From contig CAJGZL010000001.1 of the NCBI GenBank assembly GCA_904846145.1, forward strand, positions 2,728,001 to 2,792,000: DNA of 64,000 bases. Reading direction: 5' to 3'. Source of the DNA: Psychrobacter immobilis (GTDB lineage Bacteria; Pseudomonadota; Gammaproteobacteria; Pseudomonadales; Moraxellaceae). A program made the translations under genes and the position numbers. How positions within the stretch are numbered: position 1 is the first letter of the stretch; each line of letters begins with the position of its first letter. The notes beneath the pieces are model-generated. The model saw only the letters and a program-made list of their open reading frames with translations. It made no database searches and had not been told where the DNA came from. Below are positions 28-47,222 of the stretch, piece by piece.

Positions 28-3000
28 TTTCTAAGTCACCTGAGCGGTGATGAAGTTTGATGATGTAGATACCATGTTTGCTGGGGCTTTCTAAGTCACC
101 TGAGCGGTGATGAAGTTCATACTCTTGTATGGTATTGAGTTTGTTCTTTTCTAAGTCACCTGAGCGGTGATGAAGTAAGAAAGACATAACAGGTGAAGTA
201 ACTATTATTTCTAAGTCACCTGAGCGGTGATGAAGGACTTATTAAGCAGCAAGCATTATTCGGGAATTTTCTAAGTCACCTGAGCGGTGATGAAGTGATA
301 GCCGTCTGTGTGCAGTGGTGGGTATGATTTCTAAGTCACCTGAGCGGTGATGAAGACTAACCACTTGGCGTCTCTGGCTCTGCGAGTTTTCTAAGTCACC
401 TGAGCGGTGATGAAGCTATAGCCGTGTCTTATCCAATTAGCGCATGGTTTCTAAGTCACCTGAGCGGTGATGAAGAGCAACTATCTAATTTTGAAGCACT
501 ACCGATATTTCTAAGTCACCTGAGCGGTGATGAAGCTGCAATGATGGATAGCCTAGCGCCTTGTAATTTTCTAAGTCACCTGAGCGGTGATGAAGTATCA
601 TCAGCAATTGGTAACGGTGCTGTTAATTTTCTAAGTCACCTGAGCGGTGATGAAGGACCTATCTACGGCTGTTGCTACATCTCCTGTTTTCTAAGTCACC
701 TGAGCGGTGATGAAGCTACACGCAGCTTTAACGAGTCGGGTTTTGCATTTCTAAGTCACCTGAGCGGTGATGAAGGATCAGCTCAGACTTAGTTTCTGTT
801 TTTAGTGTTTCTAAGTCACCTGAGCGGTGATGAAGTTTTCTAACAACGAGGTAATTATTACATGATTTTTCTAAGTCACCTGAGCGGTGATGAAGTTTGT
901 GCGGGTGCGCTTAGTTGGGCAATATATTTTCTAAGTCACCTGAGCGGTGATGAAGATCGTGACCGCCACTGGCGTGGCTTATATGATTTTCTAAGTCACC
1001 TGAGCGGTGATGAAGTGGTCGGATGGCTCTACTATGAGCCTGTCCGATTTCTAAGTCACCTGAGCGGTGATGAAGATCAATATGTGGGTAAGTGGTCGCA
1101 AGTGGTGTTTCTAAGTCACCTGAGCGGTGATGAAGTGACGGTAAATGACAATCAAGCGGCTGTGCAATTTCTAAGTCACCTGAGCGGTGATGAAGTTCTG
1201 AGCAAGTGCTGCATGACTAGCCAGCTTTTTCTAAGTCACCTGAGCGGTGATGAAGAATTGGGTGGGGCAAGCGACTATCTTGCTTTATTTCTAAGTCACC
1301 TGAGCGGTGATGAAGCATCATCAAATCATTAGCTGATTGCAATTCTTTTTCTAAGTCACCTGAGCGGTGATGAAGTACTTCGGGCTTGCCAATTCTCCTT
1401 ATGGTGGTTTCTAAGTCACCTGAGCGGTGATGAAGCTCTTATGTTTCCAAAGTTATACGGTGTTGATTTTCTAAGTCACCTGAGCGGTGATGAAGACAGC
1501 CATGCAACGCTTTGGCTATGCTCAGGTTTTCTAAGTCACCTGAGCGGTGATGAAGCATAGGGCGTATTGAGTCTTTCGAGTCAGGCATTTCTAAGTCACC
1601 TGAGCGGTGATGAAGTACAACATGCAACATAGTAAAACTGTACTCAATTTCTAAGTCACCTGAGCGGTGATGAAGATTAACGTTACTAACATCTTCATGA
1701 ATATTTCTTTCTAAGTCACCTGAGCGGTGATGAAGGGGTCAAAATAACCACCGAACCCGCTTTTTTGTTTCTAAGTCACCTGAGCGGTGATGAAGTGAAA
1801 GCCTCTGTCGTTGCTGCTAAAGCTAAATTTCTAAGTCACCTGAGCGGTGATGAAGAAAATAAAATGCAATCAGAATTAGAAAATAACTTTCTAAGTCACC
1901 TGAGCGGTGATGAAGTATCGTTGTCACTGCTTTTGACGATAGCCTCATTTCTAAGTCACCTGAGCGGTGATGAAGTATTACTACCTCCAGCACTTCCTCG
2001 CTGTCTTTTTCTAAGTCACCTGAGCGGTGATGAAGGCTTGCTAAATCAATCAGTCCTGACATTTTAATTTCTAAGTCACCTGAGCGGTGATGAAGCTTGA
2101 CTGGTTCACCACCCTCGGGGTGTGACATTTCTAAGTCACCTGAGCGGTGATGAAGAAGTTGAAGTTACCAAGCTGTCACACCCCGAGTTTCTAAGTCACC
2201 TGAGCGGTGATGAAGTGAGTCATAGTCCCACCTCGCTAGCGGTCAACTTTCTAAGTCACCTGAGCGGTGATGAAGTTTTGATAGCGACAATTGTGCTTGT
2301 TTTTGTTTTTCTAAGTCACCTGAGCGGTGATGAAGCTACGGCACTATGAGCGAAGCCTCAGAAAAGATTTCTAAGTCACCTGAGCGGTGATGAAGAGAAG
2401 AGATTGTCCAAAAGTGTTTTGTGTTTCTTTCTAAGTCACCTGAGCGGTGATGAAGACTAAGCTCCTTTGGTCAGGTTGTTAGTAGGTTTTCTAAGTCACC
2501 TGAGCGGTGATGAAGTTACTTTCTATTAACGTTACTAACATCTTCATTTTCTAAGTCACCTGAGCGGTGATGAAGTATCTATAACAGTGTCTTCTTCTAC
2601 CTCTGGCTTTCTAAGTCACCTGAGCGGTGATGAAGGTTTTGGTACTAAAGAAATAAGTTATCAGTATTTTCTAAGTCACCTGAGCGGTGATGAAGCTGAC
2701 GTTAGTAAGGTATATAATCCGATTAGTTTTCTAAGTCACCTGAGCGGTGATGAAGGTACCACGCTTAATAAGATACGAAATAAGCATTTTCTAAGTCACC
2801 TGAGCGGTGATGAAGTATGGTCTATTGTGACAGGTATGGCAAAACGCTTTCTAAGTCACCTGAGCGGTGATGAAGTAGCGACTACTTGAGAAGCAACATC
2901 AGAAATATTTCTAAGTCACCTGAGCGGTGATGAAGTTGTTAAATATAAAGACCCTAGCTCTGCTGTTTTTCTAAGTCACCTGAGCGGTGATGAAGGATAA

Positions 3001-4315
3001 AAAATCAGCGGGGCGTGTTACTGGGGATTTCTAAGTCACCTGAGCGGTGATGAAGTGGTCTGATGGCGAGGAGATGCAGCTGTCTGATTTCTAAGTCACC
3101 TGAGCGGTGATGAAGCGTTTGCAGATGCTTTTACATTTAATCGAGCGTTTCTAAGTCACCTGAGCGGTGATGAAGTTATCATCGCAAATTCATCATCGCT
3201 TTATAACTTTCTAAGTCACCTGAGCGGTGATGAAGAAGATGCAGGCCGTGTCACTGTCTACGCAAGCTTTCTAAGTCACCTGAGCGGTGATGAAGGCAGA
3301 CTACGCTCGTAATGCAGCCCTTTATCATTTCTAAGTCACCTGAGCGGTGATGAAGGCTGTTTTTCAACTGCCGTGGCATCCGCTGGCTTTCTAAGTCACC
3401 TGAGCGGTGATGAAGACACTTTAACAATTAACCTGAGTCAATCTAACTTTCTAAGTCACCTGAGCGGTGATGAAGCTATACATACCGTTATTTGACAAGC
3501 TGACAGCTTTCTAAGTCACCTGAGCGGTGATGAAGCAAAGGCGACCAAGGCATTCAAGGTATTCAAGTTTCTAAGTCACCTGAGCGGTGATGAAGACGGT
3601 TTCATAGGTTTATCCTGTTTTTCATTTTTTCTAAGTCACCTGAGCGGTGATGAAGAGCCTGCACCTGCTGCGGGTTGGCTAGCTGCTTTTCTAAGTCACC
3701 TGAGCGGTGATGAAGACTGGTACGGGTTTTTAGGCTCAGTTGCCGTATTTCTAAGTCACCTGAGCGGTGATGAAGTTACCCAGCCTATAATTCTGAAACG
3801 AGTTACATTTCTAAGTCACCTGAGCGGTGATGAAGCGTACCTATACCGCTGCGCTAAGTGCTGATAATTTCTAAGTCACCTGAGCGGTGATGAAGATTAC
3901 GACGCAGCGGAAGAGGCGGCATGGGTCTTTCTAAGTCACCTGAGCGGTGATGAAGGCCAACGGCTTATCAGCATCGATCTCGACTTTTTTCTAAGTCACC
4001 TGAGCGGTGATGAAGTAAGCTAATCAATGCGCTGATCGTTATCAGATTTTCTAAGTCACCTGAGCGGTGATGAAGGCCTTTTTTGCCGACTTGTGCACGC
4101 GCGTACTTTTCTAAGTCACCTGAGCGGTGATGAAGAAAGCGGGCTTAGGGTTAACGGGTGTATGCGTTTTCTAAGTCACCTGAGCGGTGATGAAGGAGCT
4201 TATCGGTACGCCCACGCCTAACCAGTATTTCTAAGTCACCTGAGCGGTGATGAAGGATTGTGTGGTCGTAGGACTTGAGCCTACTGTTTTCTAAGTCACC
4301 TGAGCGGTGATGAAG
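28..4315 (-). CRISPR. Type I-F CRISPR array, 72 repeats in window, extends past left edge
   Basis: Repeats of 28 nt occur at 28-55 and every 60 nt up to 4288-4315, giving 72 repeats, 71 complete 32-nt spacers and a 27-nt partial spacer at 1-27. All copies read the same by eye. On the plus strand each begins TTTCTAAGTCACC and ends GGTGATGAAG. The guide RNA is read from the minus strand: 5-nt lead, stem UCACC/GGUGA with loop GCUCA, then the 8-nt handle CUUAGAAA, as expected for Cas6f (Csy4) processing. The leader and csy genes lie at the right end, so the youngest spacers are near 4315 and the oldest lie outside the window. Because 60 is divisible by 3, open frames run through the array; these are artefacts. 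Confidence 0.99.
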
Positions 4316-4485: not shown

Positions 4486-5097
4486 CTATTTTTTGTCAGT
4501 CCAATGCGGCACAGTGACATGATCCATCATGCCATTGATACCATACACATTAAAACGACCGGTTACTTGCTCTTCACTAACCTGCTGTAATATCTGCAAT
4601 GGATAATGGGTCTTATTGCTTTCACTATACATTCTGATAAAGGGTAGCTTTAATTCAGCTTTGCGTTTTGCAACAATCGCCATCGCCTCGTCATTACTAA
4701 TCTTCATCTTTTTGGCTAGAGATTGTATTTGTACTTCTATCGGTTTAAAGCGGTAGCGATGTACACTGACATAACCCGTTGTTTTATCGATAGGCACGTC
4801 CTTAATGCCTTTGATGTGGACGTAGTCAGTCAGTCGATCCAGCCATTTATTAAGATTTAGGGTTTCTAAGTCTTTTTGACTGGGAGCAAAGATGCGCAGC
4901 TTTAGTCCTAGCTTTGATGACTGCTCATTCTTATCATCATAGTGATAATCAGGGAAGCTTATTCCAATGCTATCAATATTATGCTTATTATTAATATCCG
5001 CCAGCGCTATATGCAGCTGAGTAAATAGCTTGCTCCAAATAAAGTAGGGCGCAATATCAGGGTCGGGGATAATGGTTACTTCTTGATAATATTTCAT
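4486..5097 (-). CDS. cas6f: Cas6f (Csy4) CRISPR RNA endonuclease
   Basis: This 203-residue protein is the type I-F guide-RNA processing nuclease. It cuts at the base of the repeat hairpin and stays bound to the 3' stem-loop in the Csy surveillance complex. Its N-terminus (DPDIAPYFIWSKLFTQLHIAL) aligns with Pseudomonas Csy4 and puts a histidine at residue 29, the known catalytic position. The SESNKTHY and FNVYGIN segments match the regions that carry the catalytic serine and tyrosine. The start ATG overlaps the csy3 stop by one base (TAATG), so the two are translationally coupled. It is the last gene of the csy operon. Confidence 0.96.
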   Translation of the reverse strand: MKYYQEVTIIPDPDIAPYFIWSKLFTQLHIALADINNKHNIDSIGISFPDYHYDDKNEQSSKLGLKLRIFAPSQKDLETLNLNKWLDRLTDYVHIKGIKDVPIDKTTGYVSVHRYRFKPIEVQIQSLAKKMKISNDEAMAIVAKRKAELKLPFIRMYSESNKTHYPLQILQQVSEEQVTGRFNVYGINGMMDHVTVPHWTDKK

Positions 5098-6068
5098 TAA
5101 TCGCCACCTTTACTAAAGACGCCACCTCGGATCAGGTTTGAAACAACATAAGCCTGTTGTTCTGATGTTAAGTCGTCATTATTCACCCATGCTACCATCA
5201 AAGTATAAAGATCGATTTTACTTTTTCTATAAGCTTGACCACGCTGAGTGACCGCACCATAAGGTTCTGCTGCAATAGGGAACTGGGCATCAGGATACCA
5301 GTTATCTACCGTGCGTAGTGCATTACCAATTTTGACGTTATGCATAGCGGCCTGATTATGGATTTTAAATAATACTTTGCGCTTTTCGCCCATATTCATC
5401 TCTTGCGATGGAAAAACACGCTGACCACTACCAAGTTGTACAAAAGCATCTACAGAGACGAAAATGAAAGTATCGCTGGCAAGCCCTTCTTTAATGGCTT
5501 GTGTAAGTTTAGTAATATCCTCATCAGTATTGTCAAAGTTGTTCAAACTATAATCATAAGCATCAAAAGTTAATAGCTCACTTTGTTGGTCACTACCTTG
5601 TCTATCAATAGCCACTTTGATCGTAATGTTTTTTACACCGACACGGTTACGCCATAAAAAACGACCATTAGCGATATTATAAGCATAGCGCTTGGCGAGC
5701 TCATCTAACATATCAGTTTGCTTAAATTCATCTACTTTTTGCTTAATGGCTGTCTCAAATTCAGGACTATTACAAGCAAATGGTAATCCTAGGTTTCCAA
5801 TAAGGCGTAAGGTAAAGCTAAGCTTTAAGGTGTCATGCTCTAATGGCAAGTTTGCATCATCGTTACTTGATGCTACAGGATTAGGTTTTGTTTTTTTATC
5901 ATCACTGATACCTTGAGCGCTTTGTGTCGAGCGGTTAAGGCGCGGAATAATTTTGATAGAGTGCCAATTATCGTTGTCTTGCTGATTCCAGTTTCCTGAA
6001 AACATAAGCGCATCAGAATTCTCAAGTTTGCGTTCAAACGATAGTAAGTTTGGTAGTTCAATAGTCAT
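5097..6068 (-). CDS. csy3: Csy3 (Cas7f) backbone subunit
   Basis: This is the Cas7-family backbone protein that polymerises along the crRNA spacer in the type I-F Csy complex. The usual Csy3 N-terminus (MTIELPNLLSFERKLENSDA) is clear. The open frame extends 53 codons further upstream, but the ATG at 6068 has a good AAAGGAG ribosome site and lies 13 bp after csy2, so I place the start there (323 residues, near the family length). Family motifs such as GNWNQ and the C-terminal LIRGGVFSKGGD are present. Confidence in identity is high; the start is inferred. Confidence 0.95.
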   Translation of the reverse strand: MTIELPNLLSFERKLENSDALMFSGNWNQQDNDNWHSIKIIPRLNRSTQSAQGISDDKKTKPNPVASSNDDANLPLEHDTLKLSFTLRLIGNLGLPFACNSPEFETAIKQKVDEFKQTDMLDELAKRYAYNIANGRFLWRNRVGVKNITIKVAIDRQGSDQQSELLTFDAYDYSLNNFDNTDEDITKLTQAIKEGLASDTFIFVSVDAFVQLGSGQRVFPSQEMNMGEKRKVLFKIHNQAAMHNVKIGNALRTVDNWYPDAQFPIAAEPYGAVTQRGQAYRKSKIDLYTLMVAWVNNDDLTSEQQAYVVSNLIRGGVFSKGGD

Positions 6069-6081
6069 GGGTAAATCTCCT

Positions 6082-7221
6082 TTAGTATGGATTTGAGTCA
6101 TCAGCTTGAGTTTTAGGTTGATAGTTTTGTTTGCATAGATACCAGTTAGGTTGGTAGTCATAGCACCATAAAGTGTTTTGTAGCTGTTCAATACTTTTAA
6201 TACGATGTACGCTTTGCCATTCACCAATACTATGTACCGCTTCTACAAAGCAGACATCTGTACTAGCATCTCTTGTATTATCGACATCGTCATTTTTATA
6301 AACAGGGCTAATGGCTTTATAGCCTGTCATAATTGGGACAAGATACCCTGAAGCAGGCTTTGGTAAGTAATCCCAATCCGCTAGGGTTTTGTTGTCAGGA
6401 TGGGTATAGCTTTGCCATTCGCTTGATAAGTTTTTGCATACCTTATCATTTCCAAGGCTATCAACATATTGAGTAATTACATTTGGTACCTCAGTATCTT
6501 GATAAGGTTTTGATAAATAATTCTGCCAAGACTGCCAAACCGCTGCATCGTCTAAACCCTCTAAATGCTTATCAATCAGCTTATGTTCAGGACGAGCTGA
6601 TTGTTTTAAAGAGACAAAATCGATCCAAGCGGTCAAAGTATCACTGTCTTTATCTTGAGCGTGACAGGCGAGTAGGTCGCTACGTTCGTATAATACAAAC
6701 CCAGGAAGTAATGAGCGTACAAGTTGTCTTAATTCTCGCTCCTCATCGTCACCGCCATCAATAGATACTAAGTCAATGTTTTTAATATCTAAGATACTAC
6801 CGCCAGCGATACGAAGTAGTCGGCAATGCGTGTTTAACCATGCGATGATCTCATCATTATCGACAATGAAGCCCTCATAAGTTATCAATAACGACAAATT
6901 GACATTCATTTTTCCTTCTTCAATAACAGAAGCGGTACTGCGTTTTTTTTCATCTGTTAAGCCATGTAGGTAAGGCGCATTTCGCGATTGGGTAAACTTA
7001 ATAGCACCGTTATCATTCCTAAAGGTATGCTGATGATGCTCATGCACTATCATTGCTGTACCCAGTAACTCTAAAGGATCTTCTTTAAAGTAATTATCTA
7101 TTTTTCGCTGCAAGGTATGAGTTACGCCCATAATAGCGGTAGGACTAATTGCCCCTGTAGTAATTCCTGCTACTGCATTCGCATTTTGAACTTGTATACC
7201 GTTAATACTAATTAGTTTCAT
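6082..7221 (-). CDS. csy2: Csy2 (Cas5f) subunit
   Basis: This is the Cas5-like subunit that, with Csy1, caps the 5' handle of the crRNA in the Csy complex. It is identified by position between csy1 and csy3 and by Csy2-like segments: an N-terminal INGIQVQNANAVAG and a central SLLITYEGFIVDNDEIIAWL. At 379 residues it is at the long end for the family. The start codon overlaps the csy1 stop (ATGA), consistent with translational coupling. Sequence conservation in this family is low, so operon context carries much of the call. Confidence 0.93.
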   Translation of the reverse strand: MKLISINGIQVQNANAVAGITTGAISPTAIMGVTHTLQRKIDNYFKEDPLELLGTAMIVHEHHQHTFRNDNGAIKFTQSRNAPYLHGLTDEKKRSTASVIEEGKMNVNLSLLITYEGFIVDNDEIIAWLNTHCRLLRIAGGSILDIKNIDLVSIDGGDDEERELRQLVRSLLPGFVLYERSDLLACHAQDKDSDTLTAWIDFVSLKQSARPEHKLIDKHLEGLDDAAVWQSWQNYLSKPYQDTEVPNVITQYVDSLGNDKVCKNLSSEWQSYTHPDNKTLADWDYLPKPASGYLVPIMTGYKAISPVYKNDDVDNTRDASTDVCFVEAVHSIGEWQSVHRIKSIEQLQNTLWCYDYQPNWYLCKQNYQPKTQADDSNPY

Positions 7222-8741
7222 ACAGTAGCCTCCTGTTTTTTATATGCATTTTTCGTTTGATTGTTTAGCAAGTTATTATCGTTAACATCCACAAGCTCTA
7301 TATGCTCTCGTAATACGGTTGCGAAAATATCCCGCCAGACACGGCTATGCTCACCACTGGCAATGAATTCGTTGTTTTTGCCTTTAAGAGATTTATTAAG
7401 CCAAGCGACAAACTCTTTGACCAATTGACCTTGCCAATCACTTTGCCGTTTGAATTTTATGAACTCGTCATCGCATCTATCAAAGTCTAAGAATATTTGA
7501 TGAGCAATAGGCAAATTACACTGTGTATCATTTGTCCAACTCGTGGGCAAGACGGCAAGTGTCTGCGAATAATCAATCACATTATGGGCGATTGCTTTTA
7601 CCCAATTACTTACGCCTTTTAATCTATTGGGATCTTTAAAGCTAATATTCGCATTCTCAAAGGTAAGTAGAAGGTTGCGAAGCTGAACGATGTTATCGTA
7701 TGAATAGTGGTTCAATAGCCGAGCATTAAACATACTTTTTAACGCTACAGGAGGGTTTAGCTGACTTTGCCAAGTGGGGGGTGCGCTGTTGAATAAACGG
7801 ATGTTTCCACCTCGACTACCATTGTTTACCGATACATTTTGGGGTTGGCTCATAACAGTAGATAAAGTAACAACATTTGGTAGGCTTTGTAATACCTCGT
7901 CACTATATTTACCTTTTTCCTTTTGTTTATAAGTATTATCTCGCTGTTTTCTGACTTCTTTAACGAAGTATCTATCGTAAATAGTTTGTATAAGTGATGA
8001 GGATTTTAAAACGACTAGCAAGTGATAGTCATCATCTACAGGATAGTAAACTTGCTTGGCGAGTGAATCGGCTTTAGGGCGAGGGTTTAGCCTAGTCTGG
8101 AATTCAGCTATGCAGTCATTTAACTCGTCACCAGTTAGAATGTTTTGTAGCACAGTGCTATCACCATCTTTTAATAGCCTGCCTAAAGGAATGCTATCTA
8201 CGCTTAATAATAAAAACTTAGCTACCTTGGACAAGCTAGCATTGGGGTAAGCACCATCATATATCAAGTTTGGCAATGTGCTGGTAGTAAGGTATTCTGC
8301 TTTAACGTCACTGATATCATCTATGATAGATGAGCCTCCACTACTTGAGTGAGTAAGCTTGGCGACATGAGTGGCTGGGGTGACATAATCAATTTGTAAT
8401 AGAGCATAACGTATCCATATCTGATAATAGTTAGTCATTGCCTTCAAAGTAACAATAGTGTCATCAATGGAGGTTATCCATGCCTCCTCAACGAATTTTT
8501 GATATACATTTTCAATCTTAGATAAATTTCGCTCGTTGAGTGACGTTTTTTGAAGTTTTATCAGCTCTTTTTGTAATAGCTTATTTTTTTTATCGTCATC
8601 AGTTTTGGCAGTTATTAAGTGTTTAGACAAAGCTGTTGCAATAATGGTTCCCTTCATTTTAGCGATTTTGTCTTGTTCATTTAAGTCATCTATATATTTA
8701 ATGATGACCTCTTGCCAAGTTGTGGTTAAGTTAGATGGCAT
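7218..8741 (-). CDS. csy1: Csy1 (Cas8f) large subunit
   Basis: Csy1 is the Cas8-type subunit of the type I-F complex and takes part in PAM recognition together with Csy2. The frame is open 24 codons further upstream, but the ATG at 8741 is preceded by AAGGA at suitable spacing and begins the expected region (MPSNLTTTWQEVIIKYI), giving 507 residues. It heads the csy1-csy2-csy3-csy4 operon. A 242-bp gap separates it from cas2-3, and this gap contains its own promoter and a crRNA-like regulatory element (8890-8965) aimed at that promoter. Confidence 0.94.
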   Translation of the reverse strand: MPSNLTTTWQEVIIKYIDDLNEQDKIAKMKGTIIATALSKHLITAKTDDDKKNKLLQKELIKLQKTSLNERNLSKIENVYQKFVEEAWITSIDDTIVTLKAMTNYYQIWIRYALLQIDYVTPATHVAKLTHSSSGGSSIIDDISDVKAEYLTTSTLPNLIYDGAYPNASLSKVAKFLLLSVDSIPLGRLLKDGDSTVLQNILTGDELNDCIAEFQTRLNPRPKADSLAKQVYYPVDDDYHLLVVLKSSSLIQTIYDRYFVKEVRKQRDNTYKQKEKGKYSDEVLQSLPNVVTLSTVMSQPQNVSVNNGSRGGNIRLFNSAPPTWQSQLNPPVALKSMFNARLLNHYSYDNIVQLRNLLLTFENANISFKDPNRLKGVSNWVKAIAHNVIDYSQTLAVLPTSWTNDTQCNLPIAHQIFLDFDRCDDEFIKFKRQSDWQGQLVKEFVAWLNKSLKGKNNEFIASGEHSRVWRDIFATVLREHIELVDVNDNNLLNNQTKNAYKKQEATV

Positions 8742-8784: not shown

Positions 8785-8823
8785 ATACTACACCAGTATA
8801 ACTGTGAATACAAGTAACCGTAG
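8785..8823 (-). promoter_or_regulatory. Predicted csy operon promoter
   Basis: Two overlapping options are visible on the minus strand. One is TTGTAT (8813-8808), 17 bp, TAGTAT (8790-8785). The other is a better -10, TATACT (8800-8795), with a poor -35 around 8823-8818. In either case the PAM-flanked target of the crRNA-like element (8818-8833) overlaps or directly abuts the -35 region. Confidence 0.5.
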
Positions 8824-8837
8824 TAGCTTAATAGTTA
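8818..8837 (+). promoter_or_regulatory. Candidate Csy-complex operator (partial protospacer with CC PAM)
   Basis: CC at 8818-8819 is followed by GTAGTAGCTTAATA (8820-8833). This matches the first 14 nt of the pseudo-spacer at 8918 except at position 6. Pairing then breaks down. A short seed-only match would allow binding without cleavage, so this could act as a repressor site for csy1. The match is seen directly; the role is inferred. Confidence 0.7.
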
Positions 8838-8858
8838 ATGATAAAAAAACTGATATAT

Positions 8859-8887
8859 TTTACAGTAAACGGGTTTTCATTTATCAT
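8859..8887 (+). promoter_or_regulatory. Predicted promoter of crRNA-like element
   Basis: A -35 box TTTACA (8859-8864) and a -10 box TATCAT (8882-8887), each 5 of 6 to consensus, are exactly 17 bp apart. The start would fall near 8894, inside the first degenerate repeat. It is divergent from the csy1 promoter. Confidence 0.6.
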
Positions 8888-8889
8888 AC

Positions 8890-8965
8890 TCTTATCACCG
8901 CATAGGTGGCTTAGAGAGTAGTTGCTTAATAACAATTTTTCACCACCGCTTAGGTGGCTTATTTT
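8890..8965 (+). ncRNA. CreR/CreA-like crRNA-like regulatory RNA (degenerate mini-CRISPR)
   Basis: Two degenerate 28-nt repeats (8890-8917 and 8938-8965) flank a 20-nt pseudo-spacer (8918-8937), in the opposite orientation to the cas genes. The first keeps the stem (UCACC/GGUGG, with a G-U pair) and the handle CUUAGAGA. The second keeps a 5-bp stem in which both arms changed together (CCACC/GGUGG), but its last four bases are lost. These are exactly the parts Csy4 processing would need for one small guide RNA. The guide matches a CC-flanked site upstream of csy1. CreR and CreA RNAs that act this way are known from several CRISPR types; the assignment here is from architecture. Confidence 0.8.
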
Positions 8966-8983
8966 TACTGTGCTTTTAAACGG

Positions 8984-11900
8984 TCACTCTTGATACAAAC
9001 CTAGCTGATATTGATAGATAAAAGATACGTTTTGATCTTGATAGGGCGATGGCTTGATTTCACCAAACTTTTTACTGATATCTTCTAAGTCGTAATGCTT
9101 ATCTTGATGAGAAAAATCTTCGATGAGTTCTTGATATATTGATAAAGGCGTTAGATCAAACCAAAACTGACTACCTGTACCAAGTATCAAATCATGGCTA
9201 TCTTGTATATTGAAAATTTCGCCTGCTTCTTTAGAGTTATGAAAGCGTTTGGTAGGGTCATGTTCGTCTGGGTCTGCCCATTTAAAGGAGGGCTTATTGA
9301 AAGCATCCGTTAACCAGAGGTGGTAAGAATCACCTTTAACTGAGTCTCTAAAACGTTGTTGGCGTTGTATTTCACCGCTCCAATGCGGATGGTGTAGCCA
9401 CCAATTTGAGGCATGATTTTTGTTTTTGGCATCATGAAGAAGTTGTAAGTAAAGTGCTTTATGTTCAAGCTCATCAAGGTACTGAACCGTTGTCGTCTTA
9501 GGGTCAAAGCTTTTTGGATAAGCAATTTTTGCAGTAGCATCTATTATTTCATAGTTGGCTTGTTTTAATACTGTTGTCAAATCATGTTCATTGAGCTTTA
9601 AGTCTTTATGTTCAAACCCTGGCTTGTTAAAGCAAACTTTATCCTGCTTAGTTAGTTTAAGTGCCTTGATGTTTTTATCTAATAAACTGATATTAGCGGA
9701 GGAGGGGTAAATGTCTCGATGACGCAGTACGCGCCCTGCTAATTGCACCATTGAGCGAATAGAGCTTGGTTCAACCACTGACCAATCATAATCATGATCA
9801 CGGCCGACCTCGGCAACAGGAGAGGCTAACACCACAAAAATATGATGAGTTTGGGAGCTTGAACCAATATTTGTACCAACGCCTTTATTAGCATCCCAAA
9901 TCTTTTCTGGTTCTTTACGTTTTAAGATAGTATCGAGATTTTGCTCTATATGAGAGCGTATCGCGAGTGGGAATCGGCTGTGATAAATACAGTAGTGGAT
10001 ACAAGTGTCTTTAGGGGCATTCTTTGCTAAGAGGTGTTTAGCGACTTGTATCATAGGGTCAATGTTTGCCATGCGCACTAAGCCTATAGACACCGTTTTG
10101 TTGTCTTTACAAAGATGATGTGCGCCATGGAGTTGGTTTATTTCCTCAAATATTGCGTTTGCCATATTTTCATTGGCTGTTAAGGTAGTGTCTTCGACAA
10201 TAGGTATAATTTTACCAATGCGTTTTGGCGGTAATGCTTTCAGCTTATTGATACGAGTAGTGACAAACGTTTCATGAGTAGTTTTAAACTCTTTGAAATC
10301 CTCAAACTTAATTGACGCCTCAATTGGTTTTTGTGTTTCATCAAACCAAGCACATTGGATTGAATTGTCCCAATCAGCAATATTGGCTTTTGCATACTCT
10401 TTCCAACCATGTTTATAAGCTTCAAAACAGGCAAAGACCAAAGCAGGAGGCATGGTGGCGGTAGACAGTAGAACACGGCTGCCTAGCATAGCTGACCAGT
10501 GAATGAGTCGGCATAAAGCAGGTAAGTCGCTTAAACCAAAGTCATCAGGCTCATCTAGTATCAAGTCACTGGTCAATAATCGCAGCATGGGTGCGATTTG
10601 CTGACCACCTCTGATACCTTCGGTAGCGGGTATGAGATGATCAATAGTACAGACCAAAACAGGCGGTAATAACAGCTTATTGGCGCGAGGCTTATTTTTA
10701 GTCCATTTGGACAAAGGATGATTTTGTACTTTGCCTTGATAGTCGAGGTACAGCTCAGGATTAATAAAATCATCAGCGGACTCACTACCCAAGATTTCAG
10801 CATCGTTATGGTCTGATTTTGCATTTTTATCTAGTGATTTTTCGAATAAGGCTTTGACAGCGATACCACCAACGGCAATGGATAAATCATCTTCGGTCAG
10901 TGTCATGACTTGCTGAAACTCTCGACCCGTCTGTAAGGTCAATGTTCTAAGACCTAATGCCACATTAAAGCGTACTTGCCCTGTTTGCTGCCCTATGGCA
11001 TACATTATTTTGGCATTACACAGCGTTTTGCCACTGCCTGTAGATGCCATATTGATACCAAAAAAGCCATTTTCAGACGTTTTCTTTCCTATCAATTTGG
11101 CTAGTTTTTGAGCGTCATCTTGCCATCCAAATTTCTCAAGCATGAGCTTAATTTTATCTTTGCTCAATTTTTGCTCTTTTAGGTTATCTTTAAGGGCATT
11201 TTCTAAAAAATCATTACTTTGTAACCCATTTAGCTTACGTTTTAACAGGGGTAAGTTTTTACTAATCTCTGCCGCTTCATGACCCACCCCTATTAGATGT
11301 TGGTCAAGTTGTTGCTTATAAACTTTCTTTCCTTCTTCGTTCCAATCGGTATTGGCATACACTGTATAGCGTTCATCTTTAAACTTACCCAGATGTTTAA
11401 TGCTTTTGCTAGTATCAATATCTAGGGAAGAGACATAATGATCTGCCATCATTAAAGCCAAACGAGAGAGGTGGGCGCTAAATAGTCTGTCATGCAGTAA
11501 GCTGGTTTTAGATTTAGAATCTTTTTGATGGGTAAGGCTATTTAGAAAAGGGAATAATTCACTTTTTGCATCGCTTGCAATTAAGCAAGCATGTGAGCGC
11601 CATTGATGGCTATGATAAGGTAAGGCTTTTTCTGCAAAAGTCCAATTGTCTTCTATGCGTGATACTTGTTCAGTATCTACACAACTAGGTGAGTTCCAAG
11701 TATCATTGAAATATTCAAACCAACGAGAGACATCGCTAAATGAAGGCGTATTTTTAAAGCTATCTTGGTAGGGATAGGTGGGAAGCTTATGGTGAGAGAC
11801 AATGAGCCACGCAACTAATTGAGCAAATGGTGGCAAATTTAATAATGGATTGCGCGATTTTTTTGCATTAGTATCTAATCCATCGCAGTAAATATTGGTC

Positions 11901-12445
11901 AAGTTTTCAAAGTGACCATTGGCTAGATTATTTAGCCAAGTTGCATCATCTGCTATGCCTACAAAAGACTGGAACAGTCTTAGTGATACCCATTCATGAC
12001 GATAGGGCTCAAAATTCTCCGTTTTAATATCAGGGTTTATTTTGTTTTGGAATAAACTGTTTGCTTTACCAAAATCATGAAATAACCCTGCTATTGCACT
12101 AGCATGTTGTATAAGTGGTAAGCTTTTCCACTCATGACTATCTTGATAAATACTAATATCTTTTTCAGTAACATTAACAGGAACCACCCCAACCTCATTA
12201 AATTTGCGCTTATTCCCCACCACCCATACCAGCTCCGTCAGCTGGCGGGTCTTATTACGATGACAGCTCACAGCCGTTGACTTAGTGGCTGAACTGCGCA
12301 ATAGCTGCTTAACGGTCGTGAGGCCATCTTCGGTGATAGCCGTCTGCCAGACATTATCGCCAATCCTATTGGCAAAGGCGTCCAAAATTCTACGCGTACG
12401 CTTAAGTGCGTTTTTTTCGCATTGTGAGACAAAGGTAACGATCAT
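8984..12445 (-). CDS. cas3: Cas2-Cas3 fusion nuclease-helicase (Cas3f)
   Basis: This 1153-residue protein has the type I-F layout. An N-terminal Cas2-like domain covers about residues 1-100. An HD nuclease domain carries GLFHDFGKA. The superfamily 2 helicase has Walker A MASTGSGKT, a DEAD-type box LILDEPDDF, motif III LLSTATMPP and motif VI QLAGRVLRHR. It degrades DNA once the Csy complex has formed an R-loop, and it joins Cas1 in spacer acquisition through the Cas2 part. All motifs look intact. No strong ribosome site precedes the ATG. It lies 126 bp after cas1 and ends 18 bp from the convergent crRNA-like element. Confidence 0.97.
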   Translation of the reverse strand: MIVTFVSQCEKNALKRTRRILDAFANRIGDNVWQTAITEDGLTTVKQLLRSSATKSTAVSCHRNKTRQLTELVWVVGNKRKFNEVGVVPVNVTEKDISIYQDSHEWKSLPLIQHASAIAGLFHDFGKANSLFQNKINPDIKTENFEPYRHEWVSLRLFQSFVGIADDATWLNNLANGHFENLTNIYCDGLDTNAKKSRNPLLNLPPFAQLVAWLIVSHHKLPTYPYQDSFKNTPSFSDVSRWFEYFNDTWNSPSCVDTEQVSRIEDNWTFAEKALPYHSHQWRSHACLIASDAKSELFPFLNSLTHQKDSKSKTSLLHDRLFSAHLSRLALMMADHYVSSLDIDTSKSIKHLGKFKDERYTVYANTDWNEEGKKVYKQQLDQHLIGVGHEAAEISKNLPLLKRKLNGLQSNDFLENALKDNLKEQKLSKDKIKLMLEKFGWQDDAQKLAKLIGKKTSENGFFGINMASTGSGKTLCNAKIMYAIGQQTGQVRFNVALGLRTLTLQTGREFQQVMTLTEDDLSIAVGGIAVKALFEKSLDKNAKSDHNDAEILGSESADDFINPELYLDYQGKVQNHPLSKWTKNKPRANKLLLPPVLVCTIDHLIPATEGIRGGQQIAPMLRLLTSDLILDEPDDFGLSDLPALCRLIHWSAMLGSRVLLSTATMPPALVFACFEAYKHGWKEYAKANIADWDNSIQCAWFDETQKPIEASIKFEDFKEFKTTHETFVTTRINKLKALPPKRIGKIIPIVEDTTLTANENMANAIFEEINQLHGAHHLCKDNKTVSIGLVRMANIDPMIQVAKHLLAKNAPKDTCIHYCIYHSRFPLAIRSHIEQNLDTILKRKEPEKIWDANKGVGTNIGSSSQTHHIFVVLASPVAEVGRDHDYDWSVVEPSSIRSMVQLAGRVLRHRDIYPSSANISLLDKNIKALKLTKQDKVCFNKPGFEHKDLKLNEHDLTTVLKQANYEIIDATAKIAYPKSFDPKTTTVQYLDELEHKALYLQLLHDAKNKNHASNWWLHHPHWSGEIQRQQRFRDSVKGDSYHLWLTDAFNKPSFKWADPDEHDPTKRFHNSKEAGEIFNIQDSHDLILGTGSQFWFDLTPLSIYQELIEDFSHQDKHYDLEDISKKFGEIKPSPYQDQNVSFIYQYQLGLYQE

Positions 12446-12571: not shown

Positions 12572-13570
12572 TCACCAATCTTTTGTCATAGCAATCTGCT
12601 TGATTACTTCAAACTGATAATCTAGCGCCTTATGCTTAGTAAACATATTCAGACACTCTTGCCGAAACTCTTGCTCACTTAAGTTTTCGCTAGCGCAGAT
12701 AAAAGCAAGGGGCAGCACCAAGGCATCTTTGATAATATCGGCGATATCAAATACCAAAGCACCACGTCTCGTCTTGCCATGCATCACCGCAAAGCCATGC
12801 GGAATACCCAATGTCCATGCGGTCGTCGCGCCAAGCCCATAGGCTAGATAGTTGCCGTGATTAAGGAAACCATTGGCCTTATCGATACCTTCATGTTCCC
12901 GAGTAAAACCGTCATAGCCCGTATTCTTGGCGGCTAGTTTATATAGCTGCTTGGTCATTCTTGCCTCTAGCTGCAACAGATGCATGACCTCCATTTGCTG
13001 ATTGATCTGCCGTACATTATCTTGGATGAGGGTTTGCACCGCATCAATACTGCTATCAAAGCCCCAACGTTTTAGCTCACTGTCTTTGCTCCATATCGTT
13101 TGCAGATAAGCAAGGCGAGCATGTTGTAATAACTTGGCTGCGGCTAAGCGCTTGTCATCATCCCACCACCAGCTCATCCAGCCTTGGATATACTCTGTGG
13201 GTCGATACTCACTTTGTGGGGTCAGCCACTCGACATAGACTTCACGCTCTGCGCCCATAAACAGTGGCGAGCCGCCACCGCCACAAAACCCAACTAAAAC
13301 GCCAGCTTGTGACAGTAGTCGCATTGCTGCTTGAGTTATTGACGTTCCCGTACCGAGTAGGATAGAGGTGGTATTAGCGATAGGAATGTTATAGAACAGA
13401 TTGGCTTTATCCTCTTCGGTCAAGTAAAGAATGCGCCCGTCTTTTTGCATTACCCTACAGTGCGATAAATAATAAATATTAGCGCGTTTTGAATGTAAGA
13501 TAGTTTTGAGGTCGGATGAGGCAAAGCTATTATCGGTATAAGCGTTTTTGCGAGAGGTAGGTTTGACCAT
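12572..13570 (-). CDS. cas1: Cas1 integrase, type I-F
   Basis: Cas1 inserts new spacers at the leader end of the array. In type I-F it works with the Cas2 domain of Cas2-3. The 332-residue protein shows typical segments: RANIYYLSHCRVMQKDGRI near the N-terminus, a glycine-rich FCGGGGSPLF, a conserved glutamate in LLQLEARMTKQLYK, and a histidine and acidic residues in IPHGFAVMHGKTRRGALVFDIAD. These fit the metal-binding E/H/D set. The start ATG has GGAG six bases upstream. It is the first gene of the cas block. Confidence 0.97.
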   Translation of the reverse strand: MVKPTSRKNAYTDNSFASSDLKTILHSKRANIYYLSHCRVMQKDGRILYLTEEDKANLFYNIPIANTTSILLGTGTSITQAAMRLLSQAGVLVGFCGGGGSPLFMGAEREVYVEWLTPQSEYRPTEYIQGWMSWWWDDDKRLAAAKLLQHARLAYLQTIWSKDSELKRWGFDSSIDAVQTLIQDNVRQINQQMEVMHLLQLEARMTKQLYKLAAKNTGYDGFTREHEGIDKANGFLNHGNYLAYGLGATTAWTLGIPHGFAVMHGKTRRGALVFDIADIIKDALVLPLAFICASENLSEQEFRQECLNMFTKHKALDYQFEVIKQIAMTKDW

Positions 13571-29808: not shown

Positions 29809-31104
29809 ATGAGCGCCAAAGCATTAAGTCAGTCATCTAATAAGCCGTTAATAGTATTAATCCTACTTTTACTATTACCCGCCTATGATGGCGCAGATAG
29901 GACTTATCTAAAGGCGATATATATAAAAGATTTAGATGCCTTTATGATCAAAATGGTCGCTGCAATTGCTGATTTTCGAATGACTGATGACCTTGATCCA
30001 GCTAGTAGCTTGCCAGATAATAATGCAGATAGCCAAGCTGGTAAGCCTGCTTTTGAAGACACTACAGCGGATGACAATAGAGCTGCTAGCCATTCGGATA
30101 ATGGTAGCAGCTCTGATAGAAATGCCGCTAGCATTGCCAACAATGAGATCAATCTAGCGCGGACAAGTTGCGGGTTAAGCGATTTATCAGAGGATTCTGA
30201 GCTGGAGAAAATGGCAGTTACTCATGCCAATTATATCAATTATGTTTTTGCAAACTCGACGCCAACGCTTTTTAACGCGCATTCTCAAAGACAAATTGAC
30301 GATATTGCAAAGGTAACAGGTCGCAATAATCCGTACTTTACAGGTGATGAGCTCAAAGAGCGCTTGCAGAGAGCAAACTATAATAACATCGCTTATGGCG
30401 TCGCTGAGAACATTGCTCAATCCAGCTACTATCATTCTCTTGGTGATATGGTCGCATCAGATAGTGCGTCACGGTCTATGATTAAGTCGTTGCTTGCTGC
30501 CCCTTATCATCTGCGGGCGTTGATGATTCCTAATTCTAGCGTGACAGGTACGGGCGTAGTCGCTTTCAAACCTTACGATAAAGATGCCAACACCTATCAA
30601 AGCTACGCTCTAGTCAACTATGCCGCCGCCACCAAAACCAGCAAAGATGTCAGTTATAGCGGTATTTTTACTTATCCTTGCCAAGGGGTGACAGATACCG
30701 TCACAGCGCTGTATAACGAGACGCCAGATCCTTTTAGAGGCACGCGCAATCTGCAAACCAATCCCATCGGACAACCTATCTATATCAATGTGCCTACTGC
30801 TACAACCATAAAGATCAGCAACGTCAGCTTCTATGATGTCGCACGTGATAGGGAGGTGCCCACGCAAGTATTGGATGCTGATCAAGACCCTTATGAAAAT
30901 ACCAGCTATGAGCTTCCTACCAATGAGGCCTTTATCTTGCCGCTGACAGATCATCTCAAAAGCTGTGAGCATCGACCTAAAATTGGTGAAAATTGTGGTC
31001 TGTATGGTAATAGCCAATACCGCGTAAGCTTCGATGTCATGATAGATAAGAAAGCACTCATCAATAAAACCTTTACCTTTAGCACAGGTGAGGTAAGTTA
31101 TTAA
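29809..31104 (+). CDS. CAP-domain protein, membrane anchored
   Basis: The 431-residue protein starts with a hydrophobic stretch (about residues 13-26) and an acidic low-complexity linker. A CAP (SCP/PR1) domain follows: NEINLARTSCGLSDLSEDSELEKMAVTHANYINYV and a later ENIAQSS. Its C-terminal 150 residues form a second conserved block (FYDVARDREVPTQVL and LPLTDHLKSCE). It is closely related to the next gene, so the two are tandem paralogues. Known CAP proteins are secreted, with diverse roles. I cannot assign a role here. Confidence 0.7.
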   Translation: MSAKALSQSSNKPLIVLILLLLLPAYDGADRTYLKAIYIKDLDAFMIKMVAAIADFRMTDDLDPASSLPDNNADSQAGKPAFEDTTADDNRAASHSDNGSSSDRNAASIANNEINLARTSCGLSDLSEDSELEKMAVTHANYINYVFANSTPTLFNAHSQRQIDDIAKVTGRNNPYFTGDELKERLQRANYNNIAYGVAENIAQSSYYHSLGDMVASDSASRSMIKSLLAAPYHLRALMIPNSSVTGTGVVAFKPYDKDANTYQSYALVNYAAATKTSKDVSYSGIFTYPCQGVTDTVTALYNETPDPFRGTRNLQTNPIGQPIYINVPTATTIKISNVSFYDVARDREVPTQVLDADQDPYENTSYELPTNEAFILPLTDHLKSCEHRPKIGENCGLYGNSQYRVSFDVMIDKKALINKTFTFSTGEVSY

Positions 31105-46694: not shown

Positions 46695-47222
46695 ATGTCA
46701 AAAGGACAAACCCTACAAGATCCGTTTTTGAATTCACTGCGCAAAGATCGCATTCCCGTATCTATTTTTTTAGTTAACGGTATTAAACTACAAGGTCAAA
46801 TTGAATCTTTTGATCAGTACGTGGTGTTACTCAAGAATACTGTCAGCCAAATGGTTTATAAGCATGCCATTTCAACGGTTGTGCCAGCACGTAATCCACG
46901 TACTGGCACCGCGGCTAGTAGTAGCAGTGCACAGGCATCATCAACTAGCACGGGCTATCAAGGTAGCAACCCTAGCAGTGGTTTTGAGCGTGGCAGTGCT
47001 AATACGGGCACTAGTGGTTTCGAAGAGCGTGGCTTTGCCTCAAACCGTAGTGGCTTCAATCGCGGTGGCTTTAATCAAGGACAGGAGCGCGGTGGTTTTG
47101 GACAGGAGCGCGGCGGCTTTGGACAAGAGCGTGGTGGTTTTGGTCAAGAGCGTGGATTTGAGACGCCAGCAGATACTTCAAGCTTTGAAGATAAAGCTAA
47201 TGATGATTCTGATAATAGCTAA
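46695..47222 (+). CDS. hfq: RNA chaperone Hfq with long glycine-rich tail
   Basis: The first 72 residues form a standard Hfq Sm core: [40 protein letters not shown] and the Sm2 segment [10 protein letters not shown]. Hfq hexamers pair small RNAs with mRNAs. The remaining 100 residues are a low-complexity tail rich in Gly, Ser and Phe, typical of Moraxellaceae Hfq. The tail includes four near-identical heptads (GQERGGF) coded by 21-bp tandem repeats at 47079-47159. Confidence 0.97.
47079..47159 (+). repeat. 21-bp tandem repeat in hfq tail
   Basis: Copies begin at 47079, 47100, 47121 and 47142 (the last is 18 bp). Each encodes Gly-Gln-Glu-Arg-Gly-Gly-Phe with only third-position-type changes. 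Since 21 is a multiple of 3, changes in copy number would keep the frame. Confidence 0.85.

Follow-up and report, generated by a model that had tools for sequence, protein, structure and literature searches.

The stretch of Psychrobacter immobilis DNA analysed here (64,000 nucleotides, the window in what follows) carries a complete type I-F CRISPR-Cas system, made up of cas1, cas2-3, csy1-3 and cas6f, all recognised by NCBIfam models above their cut-offs, together with an array of 28-nt repeats. The open reading frames of Cas6f, Csy1-3, Cas2-3 and Cas1 are unbroken and score past the curated cut-offs, and a gap of 242 nt separates the cas2-3 stop (8984) from the csy1 start (8741). The genes and the array are placed as follows:

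28-4315, minus strand: part of the main CRISPR array lying in the window, with 72 exact repeats; putative competitor for the Csy complex
4486-5097, minus strand: cas6f (csy4; TIGR02563), predicted processing nuclease of the guide RNA
5097-6200, minus strand: csy3 (cas7f; TIGR02566), start approximate
6082-7221, minus strand: csy2 (cas5f; TIGR02565)
7218-8741, minus strand: csy1 (cas8f; TIGR02564, above cut-off), with ATG at 8741 and Shine-Dalgarno AAGGA; presumed first gene of the operon
8984-12445, minus strand: cas2-3 (cas3f; TIGR02562), upstream neighbour of csy1
12572-13570, minus strand: cas1f (TIGR03637)

The main array is very long, with 177 repeats counted by pattern and the 72 exact ones within the window. 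Csy1 is also long (507 aa), about 100 residues preceding the part which matches TIGR02564, and Csy3 belongs to a divergent I-F clade. The window cas1 shares 80-92% identity with the cas1 of several further I-F loci in its genus, whose csy1 is only 21-25% identical, a pattern of sequence similarity which suggests an exchange of modules. Elsewhere in the window (47079-47152) lies a tandem array of 3.5 copies of the 21-base unit GGACAAGAGCGCGGTGGTTTT.

Two degenerate repeats in the cas2-3/csy1 gap

As described in an earlier note on this DNA, the gap holds two degenerate I-F repeats, 48 nt apart, which enclose a 20-nt pseudo-spacer and lie on the strand opposite to the cas genes. The elements of this mini-array, together with the site with which its guide pairs, are listed below:

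8818-8819, plus strand: CC PAM of the target, read from the sequence
8820-8839, plus strand: guide target, matching the guide at positions 1-5, 7-14, 18 and 20, with mismatches at 6, 15-17 and 19
8859-8887, plus strand: predicted promoter of the guide RNA, TTTACA-17-TATCAT, 10/12 to consensus
8890-8917, plus strand: pseudo-repeat 1 (R1), 21/28 identity to the array repeat CTTCATCACCGCTCAGGTGACTTAGAAA
8895-8899/8905-8909, plus strand: R1 stem, TCACC/GGTGG
8910-8917, plus strand: R1 handle CTTAGAGA, with one change from its array counterpart CTTAGAAA
8910-8957, plus strand: predicted mature 48-nt guide RNA, 5' CUUAGAGA
8918-8937, plus strand: guide (20-nt pseudo-spacer) GTAGTTGCTTAATAACAATT, between R1 and R2, pairing with the csy1 upstream site
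8938-8965, plus strand: pseudo-repeat 2 (R2), 20/28 identity to the array repeat
8943-8947/8953-8957, plus strand: R2 stem, CCACC/GGTGG, perfect
8943-8967, plus strand: R2 stem-loop followed by a T run, candidate terminator

Taken alone, each repeat stands barely above the tail expected by chance, since the best other non-array site of the window (position 31077) reaches 19/28. The pair is not a chance occurrence, because a search of the 3.25-Mb genome with the strict stem-plus-handle pattern YCACCGCNNAGGTGNCTTA gave 177 matches on the array strand, every one within a single array (2721689-2732310 in contig coordinates), and just two on the other strand, namely R1 and R2, while the reversed-pattern control gave none. 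The earlier note held that the parts of the repeats needed by Csy4 had been kept, which is right for the R1 handle and the R2 stem, but the R1 stem bears a one-sided change, unmentioned there, which leaves a U-G pair. That the last four bases of R2 are lost was confirmed (TTTT in place of the array's GAAA), whereas its two arms, said to have changed together, need not represent a compensated change from an ancestor, since the same CCACC/GGTGG stem is carried by the main array of the nearest relative (locus L035, csy1 74% identical, sequence matching the Psychrobacter lutiphocae DSM 21542 record). Among the related loci described below, the R2 stem is richer in G-C pairs than the array repeat of the same locus in 9/23 and poorer in 3/23, and in many of them, as in the window (8943-8957), it is CCACC/GGTGG irrespective of the array stem.

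Csy4 is known to cleave repeat stems, and from this cleavage and the register of the repeats a mature RNA composed of an 8-nt handle, the 20-nt guide and a 20-nt 3' hairpin part is predicted, which folds with the 3' hairpin. The R2 hairpin alone folds at -8.6 kcal/mol (z -3.2), and a terminator-like site was found at 8940-8957 (1, against 0.2 in shuffles), so in the window the R2 stem-loop and T run may also end transcription of the guide RNA; the T run 3' of R2 is absent in L035. The full precursor can also fold R1 onto R2, which counts against the regulatory role favoured below. The promoter, considered good in the earlier note, is unremarkable by itself, because its single match compares with 2.4 in shuffles; its support comes from positional conservation, the -35, the 17-nt spacing and the -10 seven nt before the stem being common to the window and L035. 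No Rfam family matched within the window at gathering thresholds.

A guide target upstream of csy1

No target had been named in the earlier note. In the present analysis one was found at 8820-8833, where 13 of 14 guide positions are paired and position 6 is the sole mismatch; the csy1 ATG is 79 nt away from its first base, and the CC preceding it is the type I-F PAM given in the available text of PMC10097628. None of 200 shuffled guides produced an equally good match near the locus. The target pattern of PAM plus seed occurs once in the genome, a uniqueness which is a weak argument, because the reversed-pattern control also occurs once; what counts is closeness to the guide. No good csy1 promoter could be recognised on the minus strand upstream of csy1, which likewise counts against the regulatory role. 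Weak candidates have their -10 at 8838-8843 or 8852-8857, and the target would cover or directly follow either of them.

In L035, the mini-array, promoter and target are present as in the window, and 14 of the 15 read positions within 1-17 of the guide are paired, the first mismatches falling at 12 and 16. Comparison of the two loci gives no compensatory and three one-sided changes at read positions, and this pair shows conservation only, because paired changes at read positions are missing from it. Further searches were made with the pattern of handle plus guide. It matched one viral contig, in which the repeat stem was absent by eye, and eight places in genome contigs, seven of them stemless by eye and taken as chance, the eighth being the Psychrobacter lutiphocae locus. 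The region gave no match in a phage collection, and a Csy1-based search of the genome contigs collection yielded no confirmed relative.

Mini-arrays in related loci

The window Csy1 was searched in 348 genomes of the family, with matches in 61 genomes at 63 places; 60 of the 62 csy1 places besides the window were fetched (G137 and G271 were left out). Three of the resulting 61 loci do not enter the gap count, L040 and L090 because the fetched region lacks cas2-3 and L077 because of an ambiguous csy1 frame, so that the count covers 58. The cas2-3/csy1 gap measures 173-1303 nt in 28 of these 58 loci, and a mini-array antisense to csy1 is present in all 28. In the remaining 30 the gap is at most 129 nt (at most 23 nt in 29 of them), and mini-arrays, which were sought solely between csy1 and cas2-3, were found in none. 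Repeat and hairpin listings were read by eye to fix the registers of L036, L056, L057, L060, L062 and L071, and the csy1 start was set by hand in 10 loci. In L051, R1 was placed 48 nt 5' of R2 and accepted because the handle CTTAGAAA is present there; the R1 of L051 and that of L053 misfit the 5-5-5 hairpin (1/5 pairs).

In 26 of the 28 loci the best CC-flanked target led the second-best site by 3 or more read positions, the ambiguous ones being L056 (margin 1) and L062 (margin 0). A -10 of at least 5/6 stands 4-10 nt before the stem in 14 of 25 loci, against 4.2 expected; L057 was left out of this count, as well as of the position profile in the PAM-free search and of the unbiased target choice described below, and L056 and L062 were added for the count of distinct guides. 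Guide lengths were 12, 13, 14, 16, 18, 19, 20, 22, 26, 27 and 31 nt, with 20 nt in 14 of the 28 loci. The idea that guide length varies in steps of six nt was rejected, as the observed lengths do not fit it.

Type I effector complexes flip out every sixth base of the guide and leave it unread, and guide positions 6 and 12 are not read by Csy complexes. The guides differ widely between lineages and, apart from the ambiguous L056 and L062, each clearly matches its own gap. Among the 25 distinct guides, positions 1-5 are paired in 25/25 each, position 6 in 9/25, position 12 in 6/25 and position 18 in 9/21, while the other positions of 1-17 are paired in 327 of 362 cases (6/12 effect, Fisher p 8e-20). 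Since the target scoring had left positions 6 and 12 out of account, and likewise 18 where this was scored, and could therefore favour mismatches there, the target choice was repeated with all positions and no PAM required. The same site, with CC, was obtained in 22/25 loci and the 6/12 effect persisted (p 6e-16), whereas shuffled guides gave a flat position profile; both p values overstate independence, because the rows are related to each other. The three exceptions were L074 and L080, which were tied, and L091, which preferred another site, all alternatives being without CC. When read positions were searched without asking for a PAM, CC preceded the best match in 25/26 loci, and the one exception, L057, has CC in the corrected register.

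The earlier note had suggested asking whether the pseudo-spacer and the csy1 upstream site change together. This holds for similar guides (60-99% identical), 14 of 18 pairs of which show 3-5 paired changes that keep the match, but not between the window and L035. As judged from these comparisons, guide-target pairing is maintained across related loci while the sequence changes.

Some loci carry additional elements. In two loci of the window's genus (L091, 9743-9878, and L092, 10971-11106, in window-like orientation) the mini-arrays have three repeats, the 20-nt guide being preceded at the 5' (leader) end by one more spacer, of the canonical 32 nt. This is the end where adaptation would insert a spacer, which hints that a mini-array can take up spacers. 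The larger gaps of L073, L087 and L092 also hold type II toxin-antitoxin genes: a HigB-like toxin and an HTH protein in L087, a similar pair by eye in L073, and a BrnT toxin in L092 (10343-10895, window-like orientation), where the pair lies between target and mini-array.

Probable autorepression and the alternatives to it

The best explanation of the window element, with a probability of roughly 0.85, is a CreR-type autorepressor of csy1-csy2-csy3-cas6f. Transcription of the guide RNA would begin near the first base of the R1 stem, and Cas6f (Csy4) would cut both stems to release the 48-nt RNA (8910-8957). The Csy complex formed on it would contain fewer Csy3 subunits, because of the shorter guide, and would occupy 8818-8839, blocking transcription of csy1-csy2-csy3-cas6f; the target would be bound without cutting by Cas2-3, which in this proposal is not triggered because pairing stops at about position 14. 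Such a circuit would constitute a negative feedback, with more free Csy complex giving more repression, and its release might occur by competition from array crRNAs or by anti-CRISPR blocking, after the CreR model outlined in the available text of PMC12737573 and PMC13131331. The suggestion of the earlier note, in which the Csy complex represses the csy operon by means of a crRNA-like RNA, gains support from the CC-flanked target, the conservation in L035 and the 28 of 58 loci with mini-arrays, all of this at the level of sequence. The same note left the type as CreR or CreA; CreR is favoured here, and the creT mini-ORF that would go with CreA is missing from the window.

Shmakov et al. 2023 have reportedly described regulatory mini-arrays with two repeat-like sequences and a guide partly matching cas8 promoters, and an I-F1 mini-array is said there to have been experimentally shown to act as a regulatory guide. 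CreR, as presented in the available text of two reviews (PMC12737573, PMC13131331), resembles the window element in being a crRNA-like RNA with a partial match to a cas promoter region, through which the effector represses its own operon. Three marks of that class are found in the window: the repeat-like elements R1 and R2 lie off the array near cas genes, in the cas2-3/csy1 gap; a PAM-flanked, partly complementary target lies in the presumed cas promoter region (13/14, CC, 79 nt from the ATG), the csy1 promoter itself not being recognisable; and no toxin gene appears as the repressed product. One of the reviews, in its available text, reports CreR in types I-B, I-E and V-A and the other in type I and V-A, whereas the window system is I-F, of a divergent Csy clade. 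The Racr phage RNA anti-CRISPRs, according to the text available in PMC10651486, share with the window element a repeat mimic outside an array; however, they are phage-encoded inhibitors of immunity, while the element described here sits in the host cas locus with a self-matching guide.

Among the closest known systems is the CreTA of Acinetobacter (Wang et al. 2023, PMC10097628), in the available text of which, as in the window, two degenerate repeats divergent from the downstream gene lie between cas3 and csy1 and enclose a guide of 20 nt which matches a CC-flanked site, its position 6 being unpaired; guide bases 6, 11 and 18 are unpaired in that system, and its CC-PAM target lies downstream of a promoter, whereas that of csy1 in the window is not recognisable. 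This likeness is one reason for considering that the window RNA could be a CreA antitoxin guide, with which the Csy complex would repress a toxic creT RNA and make the cell dependent on the system. In Acinetobacter, however, a 33-bp creT mini-ORF between target and csy1 is the repressed product (PMC10097628, available text), and the mark of the class, a creT mini-ORF with Shine-Dalgarno downstream of the target, is missing in the window. Between target and csy1 the window has a 10-codon ATG ORF, MTYSANKYKD, but it is without Shine-Dalgarno, does not resemble creT, shares bases with the csy1 ribosome-binding site and is not matched by any ORF in L035. Neither a creT motif nor any Shine-Dalgarno-bearing ORF of at least 4 codons was found between target and csy1, which favours CreR over CreA. 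An RNA toxin lacking an ORF may still lie in this interval.

The related loci point in the same direction. A creT-type ORF (M...HL.RRV) occurs in 8 of the 28 mini-array loci, all in genera g2 (the one which holds Acinetobacter sp. LoGeW2-3) and g3; LoGeW2-3, one of the three published CreTA loci, is present in the locus set as L058 and served as positive control. In these eight loci the target lies 203-600 nt from csy1 on either strand (four each), in contrast to the 79 nt of the window, while in the 20 creT-free loci, the window among them, it lies 19-89 nt from csy1 and always on the plus strand. With creT absent and the target close to csy1, repression should fall on csy1 and the genes that follow it in the operon. 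The antitoxin reading is, on this evidence, quite unlikely for the window. Four Acinetobacter-type loci (L051, L053, L057 and L060) have guide and target with creT absent, the target being 19-27 nt from csy1.

Doubts about activity are of another kind. According to the available text of PMC10097628, a change at any of positions 13-17 of the Acinetobacter CreA abolished function, and the window mismatches at 15-17 are, given this need, a point against the proposed repression. Guides as short as 12-14 nt in L036, L093 and L089 indicate that short pairing may suffice, which softens the objection and does not remove it. Weak or lost activity in the window strain is possible. The element might even be a decaying remnant of a former regulator or short array, non-functional in this strain, in keeping with the mismatches at 15-17, the changed R1 handle, the U-G pair in the R1 stem and a share of matched read positions (12/15) which is the third lowest of the 28 loci. 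However, the PAM, seed positions 1-5, both stems, the -10 and the -35 are all present and conserved in L035, and 13 of the first 14 positions are paired, so that such decay appears improbable. Still more remote is the possibility that the element plays no part in regulation and is a decoy or a plain CRISPR array with a single spacer: the additional 32-nt spacers of L091 and L092 suggest that loci of this kind in the same genus may take up spacers, but the window guide measures 20 nt instead of 32, it matches the host's own csy1 upstream site, and a full-length self-targeting guide would be expected to cause cutting.

The relation between the autorepressor and its toxin-bearing counterpart was approached with a Csy3 tree of 56 loci, L044 and L049 being left out because of short Csy3 reads. 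The window groups on a long branch with L035 and L036, which have mini-arrays, and L037, which has no gap; this branch stands apart both from a clade of 13 mini-array loci, all of them creT-free, and from an Acinetobacter-type clade of 12 (8 with creTA and 4 without creT), and deep placement in the tree is unsure because of several long branches. Within the Acinetobacter-type clade, creT-free guides are nested among creT-bearing ones, with the gap shortened to about 200 nt, which suggests that loss of the toxin turned CreTA into CreR. A broader and tentative reading, held with less than even confidence, is that the cas2-3/csy1 gap of Psychrobacter, Acinetobacter and their kin is a dedicated slot for self-regulation, at which the operon is split only where a guide RNA is present, CreR and CreTA being two states of one element. 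If so, the clade of the window would carry this arrangement as an old copy or as one that evolved separately.

No published description of the Psychrobacter element was recognised, in a search which did not reach the primary CreR paper or the tables of Shmakov et al. 2023. CreR-like autoregulation is already known, and the window element appears to be a well-supported new example of it. It adds a clear and testable case of self-regulation by a type I-F effector, in a host whose large array (177 repeats by pattern) would compete with the guide. Moreover, the 25 distinct guides and their targets form a natural mutational series, which suggests that the Csy complex needs guide positions 1-5 for repression and ignores 6 and 12, and the natural guides span 12 to 31 nt. 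Finally, the occurrence of creT-bearing and creT-free guides in one and the same gap makes the relation between addiction module and autoregulator directly testable.
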